Source: Bacteroidales bacterium (GTDB lineage: Bacteria; Bacteroidota; Bacteroidia; Bacteroidales; UBA932). From it: 9,662 nucleotides of DNA. Both the position numbers and the translations under genes were made by a program. Position 1 is the stretch's first letter. Every line of letters starts with the position of its first letter. The DNA is taken from assembly GCA_004555145.1 (NCBI GenBank), contig SFJB01000067.1, positions 1 through 9,662 on the forward strand. The letters are read 5' to 3'. The notes beneath the pieces were generated by a model, which was not told the DNA's origin, did not search any database, and saw nothing but the letters and a program-made list of their open reading frames with translations. This document shows positions 1,092 to 9,662 of the stretch, piece after piece.

Positions 1092-1127
1092 TAAGTTAAT
1101 ATGATTTGTAAACAACATAACAACAAT

Positions 1128-3767
1128 ATGACCTCTAAAGAGATAAGGCAGAAGTTCCTCGATTTTTTCGCTTCGAAGGGACATACGGTAGTGCCATCCG
1201 CACCGATGGTAGTGAAGAATGATCCCACGCTGATGTTCACCAACGCGGGCATGAACCAGTTCAAAGATATTTTCCTTGGCAACTCGTCCGCCCCTTACAA
1301 AAGGGCGACCGATTCACAGAAGTGCTTGAGAGTCAGTGGAAAGCACAATGACCTCGAAGAAGTGGGCCACGATACCTACCACCACACCATGTTCGAGATG
1401 CTCGGCAACTGGAGCTTCGGCGATTATTTCAAGACTGAAGCCATAGACTGGGCCTGGGAACTTCTGACCGAGGTTTACGGAATAGACAAGAGCCTCCTCT
1501 ACGCCACCGTTTTCGAAGGCTGTGAGGAAGACGGCACCACCCTCGACACCGAGGCGAGGGAAGCCTGGCTCAAACACCTTCCTGAGGATCACATACTTCT
1601 GGGCAACAAGCACGACAACTTCTGGGAGATGGGAGACACAGGCCCTTGCGGTCCTTGCTCCGAGATACACATAGACATACGCAGCGAGGAAGAGAAAAAG
1701 CAGAGCGGCCTGGACGGACGCGAGCTTGTCAACAAGTCCGATCCTCACGTCATCGAGATCTGGAACCTGGTATTCATGCAGTACCAGAGAATGGCCGACG
1801 GCCATCTCGAGAGCCTCCCGGCCAAGAATATCGACACCGGTATGGGCTTCGAGCGTCTATGCGCCGTGCTCCAGGGCAAAAACAGCAACTACGACAGCGA
1901 CGTATTCACCGGAATGCTTGCCGAAATCGGTAAAATTTCCGGCCACGTATACGGTGAATCCGAGAACACCGACGTGGCAATGCGAGTGATTGCCGACCAC
2001 ATACGCGCAATATCCTTCAGCATTGCCGACGGCCAGCTCCCGTCCAACGTCAAGGCGGGTTACGTCATCAGGCGAATACTCCGCCGCGCCGTGCGCTACG
2101 GCTACACCTTCCTCGGACTTACCGATCCTTTCCTCTGCAGGCTCGTAGCAAAGCTCGTGGAAGAAATGGGTGAGGCTTATCCGGAAATTGCAAAGCAGCA
2201 GAAGTTCATCGAGAACGTTATCCGCGAGGAGGAAATGGCCTTCCTGCGCACCCTTGACAGGGGAATCAAGCTTATGGATGAATGCGTGGAACGCAACAGG
2301 GACAGCAAGACCATCCCCGGCGAGGACGCGTTCAAACTCTATGATACCTACGGCTTCCCTATAGACCTCACCGAACTGATTGCCTCAGAGAAGGGTTATA
2401 CAGTCGACCTCGAGGGCTTCAACGTGGAGCTCCAGAAACAGAAGGACCGTGCCCGCAACGCCACCGCCAACAGCTTCGGTGACTGGACCGTTTACCACGA
2501 GGGCGAAGACGTGGAGTTCACGGGTTACGACAGCGTTACCGTGCAGGGCGCAAAGCTTCTTAAGCACAGGACCGTGGTTCAGAAGAACAGGGAAATGCTT
2601 CAGCTCGTCTTCGACAGGACTCCGTTCTATGGCGAGATGGGTGGTGAAATTGGAGACACTGGCACCATTGAAAGCGCTGACGGACAAGTGGTCCGGGTGC
2701 TCAATACCGTAAAGGAGAACAATCTCACCATACACATAGCCGAGAAGTTGCCGGACAACTGCAGCGGCGAATTCACGCTCCGCGTGGATGAGGGCAGGCG
2801 TCGCCGTATCGAAGCGAACCACAGCTGTACCCACCTCCTCGACAGGGCGCTGCGCGAAATCCTCGGCACGCACGTGGAGCAGAAGGGTTCATACGTGAGC
2901 GACAAGGGATTCCGTTTCGACTTCTCCCACTTCGAGAAGCTGAGTGACGAGCAGATTGCAGCAGTCGAGCGCAGGGTGAACCAGCTCGTGCGCGAGAACC
3001 ACCCGCTCGAGGAGAAACGTGACGCCACAATGGCGGAAGCTCAGGAAATGGGTGCCATTGCCCTCTTCGGAGAGAAGTACGGAGACAGGGTGAGGGTGGT
3101 GAAGTTCGGCCCGAGCATAGAGCTCTGCGGCGGCTGCCATACCTCCGCCAGCGGCAACATCGGCGTGTTCAAGATACTCAGTGAATCCGCAATCGCGGCC
3201 GGCATCAGGCGCATCGAGGCCGTGACCGGAGAGGAAGCCGAGAACTACATCTACGGCGTGCAGGATCTGCTGAAGACTGCGAAATCATTCTTCAACAACG
3301 TGCCTGACCTCAGCGGCGCGATACGCAAGATGATAGAGGAAAACGCCAGCTTCAAAAAGCAGGTGGAAGAGTTCACACGCCAGAAGGCAGCCGAGTTCGC
3401 AAAGTATGTCAGCTCCAAGGCGAGCGAGGTCAACGGAGTGAAACTCATAGTCATAGGCAGCAAGGACGTAAGCGGAAGCGATGCCGATCCTGCATTCATA
3501 CGCAATGCCGCTCTAAGCATCCAGAAAGAGCTCAGCAACACGGCACTCGTGGCCGCAGTGGCATACGAAGGCAAGCCTCAGCTCCTGCTTATGTATTCTG
3601 ACGACCTTATTGCCAAGGGCAAGAATGCCGGCAAGGACATACGCGAAGCTGCCAAGCTCATCCTCGGTGGCGGCGGCGGACAGCCCGGACTCGCATCTGC
3701 AGGCGGCAAGGACGTGAATGGACTCGAGAATGCCCTTGAACTCCTCAAGAACATAGCGACAAGGTAA
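1128..3767 (+). CDS. alaS: Alanine--tRNA ligase
   Basis: This 879-residue cytoplasmic class II synthetase charges tRNA-Ala and edits mischarged Ser or Gly. The catalytic domain begins at [15 protein letters not shown] and carries the motif 2 region [12 protein letters not shown] near residues 90-101. The editing domain has its zinc ligands His565 and His569 (HSCTH) and Cys667 and His671 (CGGCH). The C-Ala domain ends with a glycine-rich GGGGGQPG near residue 847. The zinc ligands fall one residue from the E. coli positions (564, 568, 666, 670), and the length matches E. coli's 876, which supports the start at 1128. An in-frame ATG at 1101 would add nine residues but sits almost on the predicted transcription start. 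No Shine-Dalgarno is present; the leader is A-rich, as is common in Bacteroidota. The permease-fmt gene follows after 14 bases, so both are probably on one transcript. Confidence 0.97.
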
Positions 3768-3781
3768 TTTTCCGGAGCGGG

Positions 3782-6178
3782 ATGAAGAAACTCGACCGTT
3801 TCATATTGAAATCGTTTATCGCTCCTTTCGTGGCGATACTTCTCGTCGTGATTTTCATCCTGCTTCTCCAGTTCCTCTGGGTATATATCGATGACCTGGT
3901 GGGAAAAGGCCTGGGTCTGGGCGTAGTGATGGAATTCCTGATGTGGGGTGCGTGCACTTTGTTGCCCCTATCCCTGCCTCTCGCCACCCTGCTCGCCTCG
4001 ATGATGGTCATAGGCCAGATGGCCGAGAACAAGGAACTCCTTGCAGTGAAGGCTTCCGGAGTTTCCTTCTCCCGCGTGATGGCCCCTCTGACCGTGGTCT
4101 GTACCATAATCGCAATCGGTGCATTTTTCGTGGGTGACCGGCTTGTGCCTAAGTCCTGGGCGGAAATCTACACCCTGCGAGACGACATACTCAATACCAA
4201 GAACGAGATCAAGATACCTTCGGGCATATTCTACGACGGCATAGAAGGATACACGATAAGGGTGGTGAACCAGAACAAGGAGAGCAAGATGCTCTACGGA
4301 GTTACCGTTTACGACCATACCGACAACAAGGCCAACACCACGGTTACCTTCGCCGACTCCGCGCTCATTAAGATCTCCAAGGCCAAAGACTATCTGACCT
4401 TCACCCTTTTCAATGGGTCCAACTATCAGGAAACCAATACTGTACGCTACTCCGACACGACCCTGGCCCTGCAGCACATCGACTTCAGCCGCCAGGACCT
4501 GGTGATTCCTCTGAAAAACTACCGTTTCGAGAAGTCCGACAGCGTGCGTTTCGAGGACCAGGCAAAGTCGATGAGCGTCAGACAGCTCAAGCACGAAAGC
4601 GATTCCCTGCACCACAGGCTGGATTCCCTCAATGAGCTCCATTTTGAGAGGGCGAAGAAGAGCGCGACCTTCCTGGAGAACCGCCAGCTCGACACGGCAT
4701 ACAGGGATGCCGGCAGGAGCTATTTCGAGTGCGAAGAGTTCAATGAGTGGAATTCATTGAATGACAAGGCCTTGGCAGTAAGGAGAGCGAGTGAGAATGT
4801 GGCTCGCTACAGCACTGAAATCAACAGTTACAAGTTCGATATCTACGAAGAGCAGTACTACATACGCCACGAGGACATAGAGCTTTTCAAGAAGTTTGCC
4901 CAGGCCCTGGCCTGTCTGATACTCTTCTTCATCGGAGCTCCTATAGGCTCGCTGGTGCGCAAGGGCGGTCTGGGCACGGGAGCAATAGTCGCAGTACTTT
5001 TCTTCGTACTTTATTGGGTAGTAGACATTTCAGGCTCGAAACTTGCTACCAATGGAGCCCTGGATGCCACTACGGGTGCGTTCATATCCTCGTATGTGCT
5101 CATCCCGATAGGAATGCTCCTCACCTGGTGTGCAATCAACGATTCGGATTTCTTCAATATGGACCAGCTGAAAACACGTTGGAGGAAGCTCAAGAGTATG
5201 GTATACCGCTTCTTCCGCCCTGTGCGTATCGTTTATATGGGTACGCCTGAATTTGCAGTCGAGCCCCTTGACCGCCTCATACGCAACGGGTACAAGGTGG
5301 TTGGAGTGGTCACGGTAGCAGACAAGCCTAGCGGACGCGGCCTGAAAGTGAACGAGAGCGCCGTCAAACAATATGCAGTTGCCCACGGTATTCCCGTGCT
5401 TCAGCCTGTGAAGCTCAAGGATCCTGAGTTCCTCGATGCCCTGCGCGCCTGGAAGGCGGATATGTTCGTGGTGGTTGCGTTCAGGATGCTGCCGCAGGAG
5501 GTATGGTCTATGCCGCGTCTTGGCACCTTCAACCTCCACGCCGCACTGCTCCCGCAGTATCGCGGTGCCGCCCCTATCAACTGGGCAGTAATTAACGGGG
5601 AGAAGATGACCGGAGTAACTACCTTCATGATAGACAAGGATATAGATACAGGCGGCATCATATACAGGCAGGAGTGCAAGATAGGGCCGGAAGACACTGC
5701 CGGCGACGTGCACGACAAGCTTATGGACATAGGCGCAGACCTTGTGGTCCAGACAGTGGAAGGCTTGATACAGAACAATGTGGAGACGCGCGTGCAGCGT
5801 TCATTCATCCAGGGTTCCGAGGTTCTCAAGCCGGCGCCGAAGCTCACGAAGGAGCTGTGCCGCATCAATTGGAATGACAGCAGCAGGCAGGTGTACAACC
5901 TGATACGAGGCTTGAGCCCGTATCCGACGGCATATACTGAACTGCTCTCCCCTGAAGGCGAGTGTCTCCAGCTGAAGATTTTTAAGTCCGAGAAAGTGGA
6001 TCTCAAGGGTAAACCTGGAGAAATCCTCACCGACGGCAAGACTTACTTTGCCATTGCGACCGGGGACGGAGCCATAAGCATCAAAGAGCTTCAGCTCGCC
6101 GGCAAAAAGAGAATGGAGGTGAAGGCCTTTCTTCTCGGATTCAGAAATGCGGAAAATTACTCTGTCAAAATATGTTAA
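3782..6178 (+). CDS. fmt: LptF/LptG-family LPS-export permease fused in frame to methionyl-tRNA formyltransferase
   Basis: One uninterrupted 798-residue frame holds two proteins that are normally separate. Residues 1-472 are an LptF/LptG (YjgP/YjgQ) permease: helices near 12-36, 52-78 and 100-118, a large periplasmic region 119-370, then helices near 373-393, 401-420 and 433-452. Such permeases pair with the LptB ATPase to extract lipopolysaccharide from the inner membrane. The periplasmic part is about 110 residues longer than in E. coli, with a Ser/Leu/Glu-rich helical stretch near 255-365. Residues 473-798 are a complete Fmt, which formylates Met on initiator tRNA. It has RIVYMGTPEF at 482-491, the formyl-donor loop with Asn584, His586 and LLPQYRGAAP, Asp622 in DIDTGG, and a C-terminal domain containing APKLTKE and GLSPYPTAYT. 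A basic segment, RWRKLK, joins the halves on the cytoplasmic side. GGAG lies just before the 3782 ATG. The true product may be one fused protein or also a free Fmt from 5198. Both family assignments are firm; the biological reality of the fusion is less so. Confidence 0.9.
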   Translation: MKKLDRFILKSFIAPFVAILLVVIFILLLQFLWVYIDDLVGKGLGLGVVMEFLMWGACTLLPLSLPLATLLASMMVIGQMAENKELLAVKASGVSFSRVMAPLTVVCTIIAIGAFFVGDRLVPKSWAEIYTLRDDILNTKNEIKIPSGIFYDGIEGYTIRVVNQNKESKMLYGVTVYDHTDNKANTTVTFADSALIKISKAKDYLTFTLFNGSNYQETNTVRYSDTTLALQHIDFSRQDLVIPLKNYRFEKSDSVRFEDQAKSMSVRQLKHESDSLHHRLDSLNELHFERAKKSATFLENRQLDTAYRDAGRSYFECEEFNEWNSLNDKALAVRRASENVARYSTEINSYKFDIYEEQYYIRHEDIELFKKFAQALACLILFFIGAPIGSLVRKGGLGTGAIVAVLFFVLYWVVDISGSKLATNGALDATTGAFISSYVLIPIGMLLTWCAINDSDFFNMDQLKTRWRKLKSMVYRFFRPVRIVYMGTPEFAVEPLDRLIRNGYKVVGVVTVADKPSGRGLKVNESAVKQYAVAHGIPVLQPVKLKDPEFLDALRAWKADMFVVVAFRMLPQEVWSMPRLGTFNLHAALLPQYRGAAPINWAVINGEKMTGVTTFMIDKDIDTGGIIYRQECKIGPEDTAGDVHDKLMDIGADLVVQTVEGLIQNNVETRVQRSFIQGSEVLKPAPKLTKELCRINWNDSSRQVYNLIRGLSPYPTAYTELLSPEGECLQLKIFKSEKVDLKGKPGEILTDGKTYFAIATGDGAISIKELQLAGKKRMEVKAFLLGFRNAENYSVKIC
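5181..5200 (+). promoter_or_regulatory. Candidate internal ribosome binding site and fmt start
   Basis: GGAGGAAG at 5181-5188 is followed nine bases later by the in-frame ATG 5198-5200 (Met473 of the fusion). It is the best Shine-Dalgarno match ahead of any start in the window. Starting here gives a 326-residue Fmt whose catalytic Asn, His and Asp fall at 112, 114 and 150, four residues from the E. coli positions 108, 110 and 146. It therefore looks like the original fmt start, kept inside the fused frame. The bases also encode Trp-Arg-Lys of the linker, so chance is not excluded. Confidence 0.5.
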
Positions 6179-7659
6179 GAAAGCTTAGAATCGTCCTCGC
6201 CGCACTGTTTCTGGTCGGCATAACGCTTCTTTTCTGCGGAATCGGAGCCCAATGGTGGGGTTGGATGGCCAAACTTCAGTTCCTGCCTTCCTGCCTCGCG
6301 CTCAATGTCGGCGCCCTCGCCGCCGTCCTTCTGCTGACTTTCGTTTTCGGAAGACTCTATTGCAGCGTCATCTGCCCTATGGGCGTGTTCCAGGACATCA
6401 TAATCTGGATCAGACGCGTTTATGGCAAGGCTGTTGACAAGTGCCGTGCCCGCAAACTCCGCAAGCTTAAAGAGAAAGGAATCAAGCCGGCCTCCGTCAA
6501 GCCTTCCGCGGCGTCCAGGTTTGCCTTCGTCAAGGAGAACCGCGTGGTGCGCTTCTGCATACTCGGACTCATTGTAGCCGGTAGCCTCATAGGACTTCAG
6601 TTCCTGCTAACACTGCTGGCTCCGTACAGCGCTTACGGGCGTATGGTGCGCAGCGTGGTCGGTTTGGCAGAAGGTCAGAGCATTGCTCCGGCACTCCTTG
6701 TCACCGCTGCTGCCACCCTCGTGGTGATTGTGCTTTTCGCCTGGACGGGTGGACGCAATTACTGCAACTATATTTGTCCTGTGGGCACTGCGCTCAGTCT
6801 CGTGTCCCGTTTCTCACTCTTCAAGCCGGTGATTGACGAGAGCAAGTGCGTATCCTGCGGCCGCTGCGTGAAGAAGTGCAAGGCTTCTTGTATCGACGGT
6901 GTCAATCACCGTATAGACGGCAGCCGCTGTGTGGTCTGCTTCGACTGTCTGGACAACTGTAGCGAAGGAGCAATCAAATACAGGTTCCGTTTCTCAAAGG
7001 CCTGCAGGCCTGCTTCCAAATCCGAAGCTGCCTCTGCCGACAAATCCCGCAGAAGCTTCCTGGTCACGACTGCCATCGCAGGTACGGCTCTTGCCGCAAA
7101 AGCCCAGAACAAACGTCTGGACGGCGGTCTTGCCGATGTAGTGGACAAGACTGTACCGGAGCGTTCCGGGCGTCTTGTGCCCCCGGGAGCGGGAAGCGTG
7201 AAGCGTTTCTATGACAGGTGCACCGCCTGCCAGCTCTGCGTGAGCAACTGTCCTAACGGCGTGCTCCGACCTTCCACCGACATAGAGCACTTCCTCCAGC
7301 CTGAGATGGGCTACGAAAAAGGCTATTGCAGACCTGAGTGCAACACTTGCGGCACTGTCTGCCCAGCCGGAGCAATACTTCCGATCAAAAAGGAAGAAAA
7401 ACTACTCGTTCACATAGGCACCGCAAAGGTGAATCCTGATCTCTGCTTTGCTGCATTGGGCAAGGAGTCCTGCGGCAACTGTGCGTATCACTGCCCTTCA
7501 GGTGCAATCAGAATGATTACCGATGCTGAGGGTCGCCGTATGCCTGTTGTCAACGAGGAACAGTGCATAGGCTGCGGAGCCTGCGAATATCTCTGCCCTT
7601 CCAGGCCTGTCAGTGCCATCACCGTGAACGGATTGTCAACCCATATAGAAAATAACTGA
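6172..7659 (+). CDS. Membrane polyferredoxin: NapH-like and NapG-like 4Fe-4S domains in one protein
   Basis: A 495-residue iron-sulfur membrane protein, probably passing electrons from the quinol pool to the periplasm. Helices lie near 7-27, 38-59, 128-149 and 173-192. Two NapH-type CxxxCP motifs sit at the cytoplasmic ends of helices 2 and 4 (Cys64/68 and Cys198/202). A two-cluster ferredoxin domain follows (Cys226, 229, 232, 236 and Cys253, 256, 259, 263). An internal twin-arginine motif, SRRSFL, at 292-297 leads a hydrophobic stretch to about 312. The NapG-like part then has four further cysteine sets: 350/353/356/360, 386/390/393/397, 425/434/437/441 and 465/468/471/475. The second and third of these have non-classical spacing. 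The ATG overlaps the fmt stop by seven bases (ATGTTAA), so translation is probably coupled. The aldo/keto reductase gene follows after seven bases and is its likely electron partner. I recall similar fused proteins in other Bacteroidota; no nitrate reductase gene is nearby, so a role in nitrate reduction is not implied. Confidence 0.85.
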   Translation: MLRKLRIVLAALFLVGITLLFCGIGAQWWGWMAKLQFLPSCLALNVGALAAVLLLTFVFGRLYCSVICPMGVFQDIIIWIRRVYGKAVDKCRARKLRKLKEKGIKPASVKPSAASRFAFVKENRVVRFCILGLIVAGSLIGLQFLLTLLAPYSAYGRMVRSVVGLAEGQSIAPALLVTAAATLVVIVLFAWTGGRNYCNYICPVGTALSLVSRFSLFKPVIDESKCVSCGRCVKKCKASCIDGVNHRIDGSRCVVCFDCLDNCSEGAIKYRFRFSKACRPASKSEAASADKSRRSFLVTTAIAGTALAAKAQNKRLDGGLADVVDKTVPERSGRLVPPGAGSVKRFYDRCTACQLCVSNCPNGVLRPSTDIEHFLQPEMGYEKGYCRPECNTCGTVCPAGAILPIKKEEKLLVHIGTAKVNPDLCFAALGKESCGNCAYHCPSGAIRMITDAEGRRMPVVNEEQCIGCGACEYLCPSRPVSAITVNGLSTHIENN

Positions 7660-7666
7660 TACAGCT

Positions 7667-8998
7667 ATGGATAGAAGAGAGTTTTTGAAGAAAGCCGGCG
7701 TGGGCGCCGCGGCTCTTGGAGTCGGAGCCTGCGCTCCCGGAAGCCTTAAAGGAGGCTCGGACAACAAAGAGACCACGTCCCCTTCCGGTACTATGGTCTG
7801 CAATTATGAAGGCGTAGGACTCCTCGGCTATGGCTGTATGAGGTGGCCTCAAGTCAAGGGAGACGACGGCAAGAACCATATAGACCAGGATGCGGTGAAC
7901 TCCCTGGTCGATTATGCCCTTGAACACGGAGTCAACTATTTCGACACCTCCCCTATATATCTTGAGGGCGACAGTGAAAGGGCAACGGCTGAGGCCCTGA
8001 ACCGCCATCCGCGCGAGAAGTGGCTGCTTGCAACCAAACTTTCCAACTTTGGAGATGCCAGCTATGACAATTCCGTGAAGATGTACCGCAAATCCCTTGA
8101 GATTTTCAAAACTGATTACGTGGACTACTATCTTCTCCATTCAGTAAGCGGCGGCGCAGATTTCAACAACAGATTCGGAGATACGGGAATAATGGACTTC
8201 CTCCTTGAGGAGAGGCGTAAAGGCCATATCCGCAATCTGGGATTCTCTTTCCATGGTCCGGATAACGGATTCAGGGAACTTATGGCCCTGCACGAGAAAT
8301 ACCACTGGGATTTCGTCCAGATTCAGATGAACTACATGGACTGGACACATTCAGGGGCCAACAATGCCAGCGCCAAGTTCCTCTACGGGGAGTTGGACTC
8401 AAGGGAGATTCCAATCATAATAATGGAGCCTCTTCGTGGAGGCCGTCTGGCGGACCTTCCTGCGGCTCTTGCCGATATGCTGAAGTCAAGGGAACCTCAA
8501 AAATCCCTCGCTTCCTGGGCTTTCCGCTTTGCGGGCAGTTTCCCGAGGGTGAAGTGCATACTCAGCGGAATGACATATATGAACCACCTCCAGGATAATC
8601 TGGATACCTTCCTGAATTTCAAGCCGCTCACCGACGAAGAAAAGGATCTGCTGGAACTCACTGCCGACCAGATGGAAAAATATCCCCTCGTGCGCTGCAC
8701 CAGCTGCCAATACTGTATGCCTTGTCCTTATGGCATCAATATCCCGGCAATCTTCCGTTTTTATAACGACAACGTGAATGCGGGCACCTATGTCGTGAAC
8801 AAGGAACAGGAAGGCTATGCAAAGGCCCGCAGGCGCTATCTGTTGGCTTATGACAAGGCTATCCCAAGCGTGCGTCAGGCCGACCACTGCATCTCCTGCG
8901 GCCGTTGTTCAAAGGCCTGCCCTCAGCACATAGCCATACCCCGGGAACTGAGGCGCATCGATGCCTACATCGAATCCCTTAAGAGGGAGGAACTTTAA
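7667..8998 (+). CDS. Tat-exported lipoprotein aldo/keto reductase with C-terminal 4Fe-4S domain
   Basis: A 443-residue oxidoreductase. The N-terminus MDRREFLKKAG is a twin-arginine signal. The hydrophobic stretch ends in the lipobox VGAC with Cys22 as the putative lipid-carrying residue, so the mature protein is predicted to be anchored outside the cytoplasm. The aldo/keto reductase barrel keeps the full catalytic tetrad: Asp93 and Tyr98 (DTSPIY), Lys124 (ATKL) and His158 (LLHS). The segment LSGMTYMNHLQDNLD near residue 300 resembles the family's late cofactor-binding region. The C-terminal part adds cysteines 344, 347, 350 and 353, followed by PYGINIP, and a classical set 408, 411, 414 and 418 followed by PQHIAIP. 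The clusters and export suggest that electrons may come from the polyferredoxin encoded immediately upstream rather than from NADPH, which is scarce outside the cytoplasm; this is inference. The substrate is unknown. A hairpin follows the stop after 22 bases, so this is probably the last gene of the operon. Confidence 0.88.
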   Translation: MDRREFLKKAGVGAAALGVGACAPGSLKGGSDNKETTSPSGTMVCNYEGVGLLGYGCMRWPQVKGDDGKNHIDQDAVNSLVDYALEHGVNYFDTSPIYLEGDSERATAEALNRHPREKWLLATKLSNFGDASYDNSVKMYRKSLEIFKTDYVDYYLLHSVSGGADFNNRFGDTGIMDFLLEERRKGHIRNLGFSFHGPDNGFRELMALHEKYHWDFVQIQMNYMDWTHSGANNASAKFLYGELDSREIPIIIMEPLRGGRLADLPAALADMLKSREPQKSLASWAFRFAGSFPRVKCILSGMTYMNHLQDNLDTFLNFKPLTDEEKDLLELTADQMEKYPLVRCTSCQYCMPCPYGINIPAIFRFYNDNVNAGTYVVNKEQEGYAKARRRYLLAYDKAIPSVRQADHCISCGRCSKACPQHIAIPRELRRIDAYIESLKREEL

Positions 8999-9183: not shown

Positions 9184-9662
9184 ATGCCGAAGTACTTCTA
9201 CAATCCGGAGACTTTGCTCTATGAGGTCAAGAAGGACAACAAATACCTCAAGCATATAAAGGTCGCCCTGTTGATTCTGACAGCGCCGGCCTTGATGTGT
9301 TTATATTTCTGGATATATGTGTCCGTGCTTCATCTGGAGCTGCCCAAGACCGCCTGGCTCAAGCGTCAACACGCCAGCTGGGAGGCCAGGATGGACATAC
9401 TCGACCGCCAGATGGATATCTACGAGCAGACTCTCACCGGCATAGAGCAGCGCGATGATGACGTGTACAGGTCGATTTACGGACTCAGCCCCATACCGGA
9501 GGAACTGCGCAACTCGGGACTCGAGGGTGTGAACCGCTACAACGAGCTTGACGCGCTGGGCGCTAATTCCCGGCTCAAGCTCTCCGTGCACCGCCTGGAC
9601 GCGCTCATGAAAAGGGTGTACCTGCGCAGCCGTGCCCTGGACGAGATGTGGGACATCTCCTC
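9184..9662 (+). CDS. M23-type metallopeptidase family protein, N-terminal part (truncated by window end)
   Basis: The frame is open from the ATG at 9184 to the window end (159 codons plus two bases), with no stop reached. The visible protein has a short cytoplasmic start (PKYFYNPETLLYEV), one membrane helix near residues 25-49, a charged helical, probably coiled-coil, segment near 56-92, and then the stretch IEQRDDDVYRSIYG followed by PIPEELRNSG and NRYNEL. This N-terminal pattern is what I recall from Bacteroidota cell-wall proteins that end in an M23 (LytM-like) peptidase domain, which cut or help regulate cutting of peptidoglycan cross-links. The peptidase domain with its zinc ligands would lie beyond the window, so catalytic status cannot be judged. 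ATG 9184 is the only sensible start because the conserved residues begin at once. A separate promoter and the upstream hairpin make it independent of the preceding operon. Confidence 0.72.
   Translation, partial: MPKYFYNPETLLYEVKKDNKYLKHIKVALLILTAPALMCLYFWIYVSVLHLELPKTAWLKRQHASWEARMDILDRQMDIYEQTLTGIEQRDDDVYRSIYGLSPIPEELRNSGLEGVNRYNELDALGANSRLKLSVHRLDALMKRVYLRSRALDEMWDIS

Follow-up and report, generated by a model that had tools for sequence, protein, structure and literature searches.

Can a permease for lipopolysaccharide (LPS) export and the enzyme that formylates initiator tRNA be one and the same protein? The question is raised by Bacteroidales contig SFJB01000067.1 (9,662 nucleotides; the whole stretch is referred to here as the window), in which an LptF/LptG-type permease gene and the gene for methionyl-tRNA formyltransferase (Fmt) share one reading frame. 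Known Fmt enzymes are free soluble proteins of about 310 amino acids. An earlier note, made from the sequence alone, described a six-helix permease that runs without a stop into a complete Fmt, and the open reading frame (ORF) listing of the window, Pfam, NCBIfam and hydropathy all agree with this description. A single frame extends from ATG to TAA over 798 codons plus the stop (Table 1).

The LptF_LptG domain (PF03739) was matched with 221.6 bits at residues 6–448, against a cut-off of 27.9. Formyl_trans_N (123 bits, residues 482–658) and the tRNA-binding C-terminal domain Formyl_trans_C (PF02911; 89.3 bits, residues 687–787) are both far over their cut-offs, and the Fmt part, at residues 482–788, is complete. 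The NCBIfam fmt model (TIGR00460) scored 253.5 bits and passed its equivalog cut-off of 201.5, which the fused proteins of four relatives (L022, L035, L037 and L183) also pass. The permease half stays under the equivalog cut-offs of both LptF (TIGR04407; 142.1 bits, cut-off 230) and LptG (TIGR04408; 114.1 bits, cut-off 240), and is therefore named LptF/LptG-type, with no distinction between the two. Hydropathy indicates six membrane-like stretches, three on each side of a presumed periplasmic part. The catalytic residues Asn584, His586 and Asp622, which the note had called intact, line up with the E. coli enzyme's N-x-H and D (PDB 1fmt) and are identical in all 107 fused and 53 split Fmt rows aligned.

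Both folds are present in a predicted structure of the fused protein, which has a predicted local distance difference test score (pLDDT) of 93.7. Its permease half matches LptF/LptG chains and is built of three helices, a beta domain with long helices (presumed periplasmic) and three further helices; the Fmt fold was aligned over residues 475–796. An earlier model based on 25 close sequences was poor (pLDDT 70.6), and the fold matches given here come from the second model instead.

The same full-length architecture, which the note had proposed to look for in relatives, is present in every one of the 120 homologues listed from a protein search (5334 matches, E up to 0.001). All 120 carry the three Pfam domains; 119 are 788–910 amino acids long and one is a fragment of 558. 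The nearest homologue cluster, at 99% identity, stands for 101 sequences, and there are hundreds more member sequences from several sources. At the DNA level 112 fused genes were read, the window included. Among the best 80 loci on contigs from one genome per species, ORF reading gave 39 fused genes, six loci with both genes apart and 35 with fmt alone. The note had considered that close relatives might all have separate genes; the 32 rows that form the smallest starred set around the window in the tree are all fused. That the fusion is real, conserved and not an artefact is well supported. A literature search in PMC, judged by title, found no publication on an lptF/lptG–fmt fusion; two NCBI clusters and one JGI cluster among the listed homologues bear the name 'methionyl-tRNA formyltransferase', and the three-domain architecture is probably already present in automated domain databases.

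Table 1 Features of the fused gene and its surroundings in the window.
Feature	Position	Strand	Evidence and remarks
alaS, alanyl-tRNA synthetase	1101..3767	+	Pfam, ORF; 14 bases upstream of the fused gene
Fused lptF/lptG–fmt gene	3782..6178	+	798 amino acids plus stop
LptF/LptG permease part, residues 1–450	3782..5131	+	PF03739, hydropathy, model, fold match
Linker, residues 451–480	5132..5221	+	Sequence comparison, model; basic, helix 460–478 in model
In-frame ATG (Met473), 13 codons before the MGTP Met	5198..5200	+	Possible start, unconserved (ATG here in 3/111 fused genes)
Methionyl-tRNA formyltransferase part, residues 481–798	5222..6175	+
In-frame GTG (Val481), 5 codons before the MGTP Met	5222..5224	+	Possible start, unconserved (ATG/GTG/TTG here in 12/111 fused genes)
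Codons Asn584, Leu585, His586 (active site)	5531..5539	+	Alignment
Codon Asp622 (active site)	5645..5647	+	Alignment

Copy number and proposed function

A search for fmt in 29 genomes returned exactly one match over the cut-off in each. The earlier note had suggested looking for second copies of either gene. In all 23 fused genomes the single match over the cut-off is the fused gene itself, in open frames of 803–932 amino acids; a separate free fmt was thus rejected, other rows being weak and mostly partial relatives of formyltransferases. A second, separate permease (PF03739; open frames of 363–494 amino acids) was found in 19 of the 23. Peptide deformylase was detected in all 23 genomes searched for it (19 fused, 4 split) and formylation of Met-tRNAfMet therefore appears to be in use in these cells.

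We consider it likely that the gene encodes a genuine two-function protein, in which an LptF/LptG-type exporter half is joined to the only recognisable Fmt of the cell and both work within one polypeptide. The permease half would pair with the second, unfused LptF/LptG protein and with LptB in the inner membrane, and the chain would run on into Fmt through a stretch that forms the free tail of the permease in relatives. The C-terminus of the permease should be cytoplasmic, so that Fmt would be tethered to the inner membrane, provided that the polypeptide stays whole, and would formylate Met-tRNAfMet from the cytoplasmic face. We infer the uncleaved product, its membrane location, the pairing with LptB and the retained activity of each half from genes and models.

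Textbook bacteria have this housekeeping enzyme of translation as a soluble protein; here the only copy found is predicted to sit in the inner membrane, anchored as part of an LPS exporter. Should the full-length protein be stable, the cell could neither express nor degrade its LPS-export and initiator-formylation functions independently.

The fused protein differs in several ways from the systems that it resembles. Compared with Fmt (TIGR00460; PDB 1fmt, 2fmt), the enzyme forms the C-terminal half of a membrane protein. Compared with LptF/LptG permeases (PF03739; PDB 5x5y, 6mhu, 8frl and others), the permease is about 90 residues longer than the Pfam profile and bears an enzyme at its C-terminus. 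ArnA, a fusion of a formyltransferase with a decarboxylase/oxidase (PDB 1z7e), likewise has a formyltransferase domain in a two-function protein, but the window protein scores 149.4 bits against the ArnA cut-off of 777. ArnA is linked to the chemistry of envelope lipid A; its formyltransferase acts on a sugar nucleotide, both of its halves serve one pathway and it is soluble. The unfused lptG–fmt pairs of relatives (L191–L230, L042, L043 and others) have the same genes in the same order as the fusion but occupy two reading frames, or one frame interrupted by a stop.

Distribution and origin of the fusion

We searched 199 genomes, drawn from a larger group, of the family around Candidatus Cryptobacteroides faecigallinarum (G013; Bacteroidales), which we take to be GTDB family UBA932. 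Fused genes occur in 79 of them among the matches listed, 76 by ORF reading (72 fetched regions plus L019, L022, L037 and L053) and three by the search row: G482 and G592, whose rows are cut by contig ends, and G518. Apart from these three, fused status rests on direct ORF reading (table 11) throughout. Fifty genomes have neighbouring split lptG–fmt pairs by ORF reading (48 fetched regions plus L042 and L043). The other 70 comprise 20 with a permease row only, 48 outside the matches listed, where a full fusion is not expected, and two without a match.

Among 395 genomes sampled from the class, G013 had a match of 1318 bits spanning both halves; the next best row scored 461 bits, over one half. 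Complete fused rows in the Candidatus Cryptobacteroides family exceed 900 bits, those cut by contig ends going down to about 670; by score, therefore, no full fusion shows among the other 394 class genomes, represented by their best listed rows with the DNA unread. In the Alistipes family (120 genomes searched) 12 rows cover both halves, each with one internal stop. No fusion was found in the 40 regions of that family whose DNA was read, and the genome of L038 and L040 is split as well; at L249, on a contig edge, lptG alone was seen. Fused genes were thus found, in the genomes searched, only in the family around Candidatus Cryptobacteroides.

Open frames near 1250 amino acids, given for both halves in many rows, had suggested a three-part fusion in the Alistipes family. 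This was ruled out by separate table-11 ORFs in 39 of the 39 loci that show both genes, and direct ORF reading was used for fused status elsewhere because these figures were misleading. The gap between lptG and fmt in this family is about 1 kb or more in 36 of the 39 loci; in L231, the one locus in which the intervening gene was identified, it holds ribBA (3458–4684).

In the unfused relatives read in the Candidatus Cryptobacteroides family, lptG and fmt are direct neighbours. In 42 of 53 such pairs the reading frames overlap; in the other 11 both genes lie in one frame, separated by a stop. The nearest Fmt start precedes the end of lptG in 33 of the 53, by 4 bases in several. One frameshift or one lost stop would therefore be enough to fuse the two genes.

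Trees were built from the two domains without the linker, with FastTree (139 rows) and IQ-TREE (55 rows), leaving out L017, L030, L177, L186 and L187 (fused, truncated or interrupted) and L074 (lptG 4.4 kb from fmt). By parsimony both trees contain four changes between fused and split, at least three of them forced on starred branches. Constraining all fused rows to one clade was rejected (approximately unbiased test, p 2.9e-57), and the linker sequences differ between fused groups; repeated fusion is therefore probable. If the unfused Rikenellaceae are taken as outgroup, four gains give the simplest account: in the large clade of the window, in the L037 clade, in L160 and in L183. On this inferred direction of change, the fusion probably had three or four separate origins within a single Bacteroidales family. 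The same pair fused in separate clades would be a natural replicated experiment in turning overlapping operon genes into one protein, whether selected or ratcheted.

Was the join selected? Within one family, separate clades carry a fusion of these two genes in an unchanged order, and in neither tree does the largest fused clade include a split member. Across 165 loci, open frames reach at most 46 residues beyond Fmt and at most 102 ahead of the permease, so the unit is not fused further to either neighbour, though alaS lies close in most. These observations would fit an adaptive fusion, in which fixing Fmt to the LPS exporter would link envelope growth with the formylation of initiator tRNA or with its local supply. 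Overlapping frames, however, are joined by a single indel and are hard to separate again: reversal needs a stop and, in about half of the cases, a new start. A neutral ratchet would yield the same pattern and is therefore as plausible an explanation of persistence as selection; moreover, the alaS and downstream pairs used for comparison are not matched for overlap as controls. An adaptive origin seems to us unlikely, and we are equally doubtful of a reading in which formylation is physically part of the exporter and ties the start of translation to sites of envelope export, or gathers it there, the join having been selected repeatedly.

One polypeptide or two

The linker is the counterpart of the free C-terminal tail of the unfused permease. 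Among close relatives of the window it is nearly constant in length and alike in sequence. The pooled ratio of non-synonymous to synonymous substitution (dN/dS) is 0.25 in the linker, 0.18 in the preceding stretch and 0.09 at the start of Fmt, rough figures from 132 of 140 chosen pairs (eight dropped out) that share members; they indicate that the linker is under purifying selection as protein. In the split pairs, 5 to 13 codons separate the nearest upstream candidate for an Fmt start from the invariant Met of the motif MGTP. Given this range, the codon 5 before MGTP was dropped as the old start. The interval from 14 to 4 codons before that Met contains no in-frame ATG, GTG or TTG in 54 of 111 fused genes (L170, without the motif used, was left out), which sets these genes apart from those of known Fmt. 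Internal initiation, possible as it is in many strains, is thus not conserved. The gene product is most likely active as one uncleaved polypeptide.

Several points weigh against an intact product and its repeated origin. The evidence for the fusion protein consists of genes and a predicted structure, and no second LptF/LptG was found in four of the 23 fused genomes searched (G001, G002, G015 and G017), perhaps because these genomes are incomplete. A start-type codon is present in the interval in 57 of the 111 fused genes, 41 of them with ATG, and the window itself has an ATG at 5198 and a GTG at 5222 in frame ahead of Fmt, so that free Fmt by internal initiation is possible in this strain and in others; proteolytic release would leave no trace in the sequence. 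The branch uniting the largest fused clade is supported at 80 (FastTree) and 88 (IQ-TREE), and L160 and L183 are placed by branches of 80–90 support or at unresolved forks. As the trees give no direction of change, fewer gains followed by fissions are a possible alternative to repeated gains.

The start-type codons, in the window and in the 57 genes, together with linker blocks whose pLDDT of 80–84 is below that of flanking residues, would suit a frame that yields two working proteins, with a separate Fmt made by internal initiation or linker proteolysis and the tethering only apparent. Purifying selection on the linker and the lack of a conserved start, or of any start-type codon in 54 genes, speak for the uncleaved polypeptide instead, and we regard two separate products as improbable.

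The idea of an artefact of sequencing or assembly, or of a join made recently in this strain alone, has the +1-frame stop at 5169 as the sole point in its favour and is already refuted by the 99%-identity cluster of 101 sequences, by the hundreds of further member sequences from several sources and by the 111 other fused genes. The earlier note had argued that no simple indel would restore two clean genes, the nearest stop in another frame lying at 5248. That stop, in the +2 frame, is correct, but two stops of the +1 frame that precede the junction, at 5109 and 5169, had been missed; the argument is therefore weaker than stated, and it is the relatives that settle the question.

Neighbouring genes and other observations

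Upstream lies alaS at 108 of the 111 fused loci and at 46 of the 54 split ones. Downstream in the window, the stop of the fused gene overlaps the start of a polyferredoxin gene (ATG at 6172). The region 6172–8998 encodes this polyferredoxin and then an aldo/keto reductase with a match to a Tat-type signal and with 4Fe-4S motifs. Of 111 fused relatives, 14 also have the polyferredoxin gene after the fused one, and in L001 the polyferredoxin–aldo/keto reductase pair is located upstream of alaS.

In L017, from a yak rumen metagenome-assembled genome, the permease part of the fused gene contains an in-frame TAG (1129–1131) where relatives have a sense codon; it may be an error, the mark of a pseudogene or a suppressed stop. 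At the end of the window (9184–9662) a frame of 159 amino acids starts and runs off that end without a Pfam match. Its relatives are located beside alaS, on the opposite strand, in L022, L032, L035 and L042.
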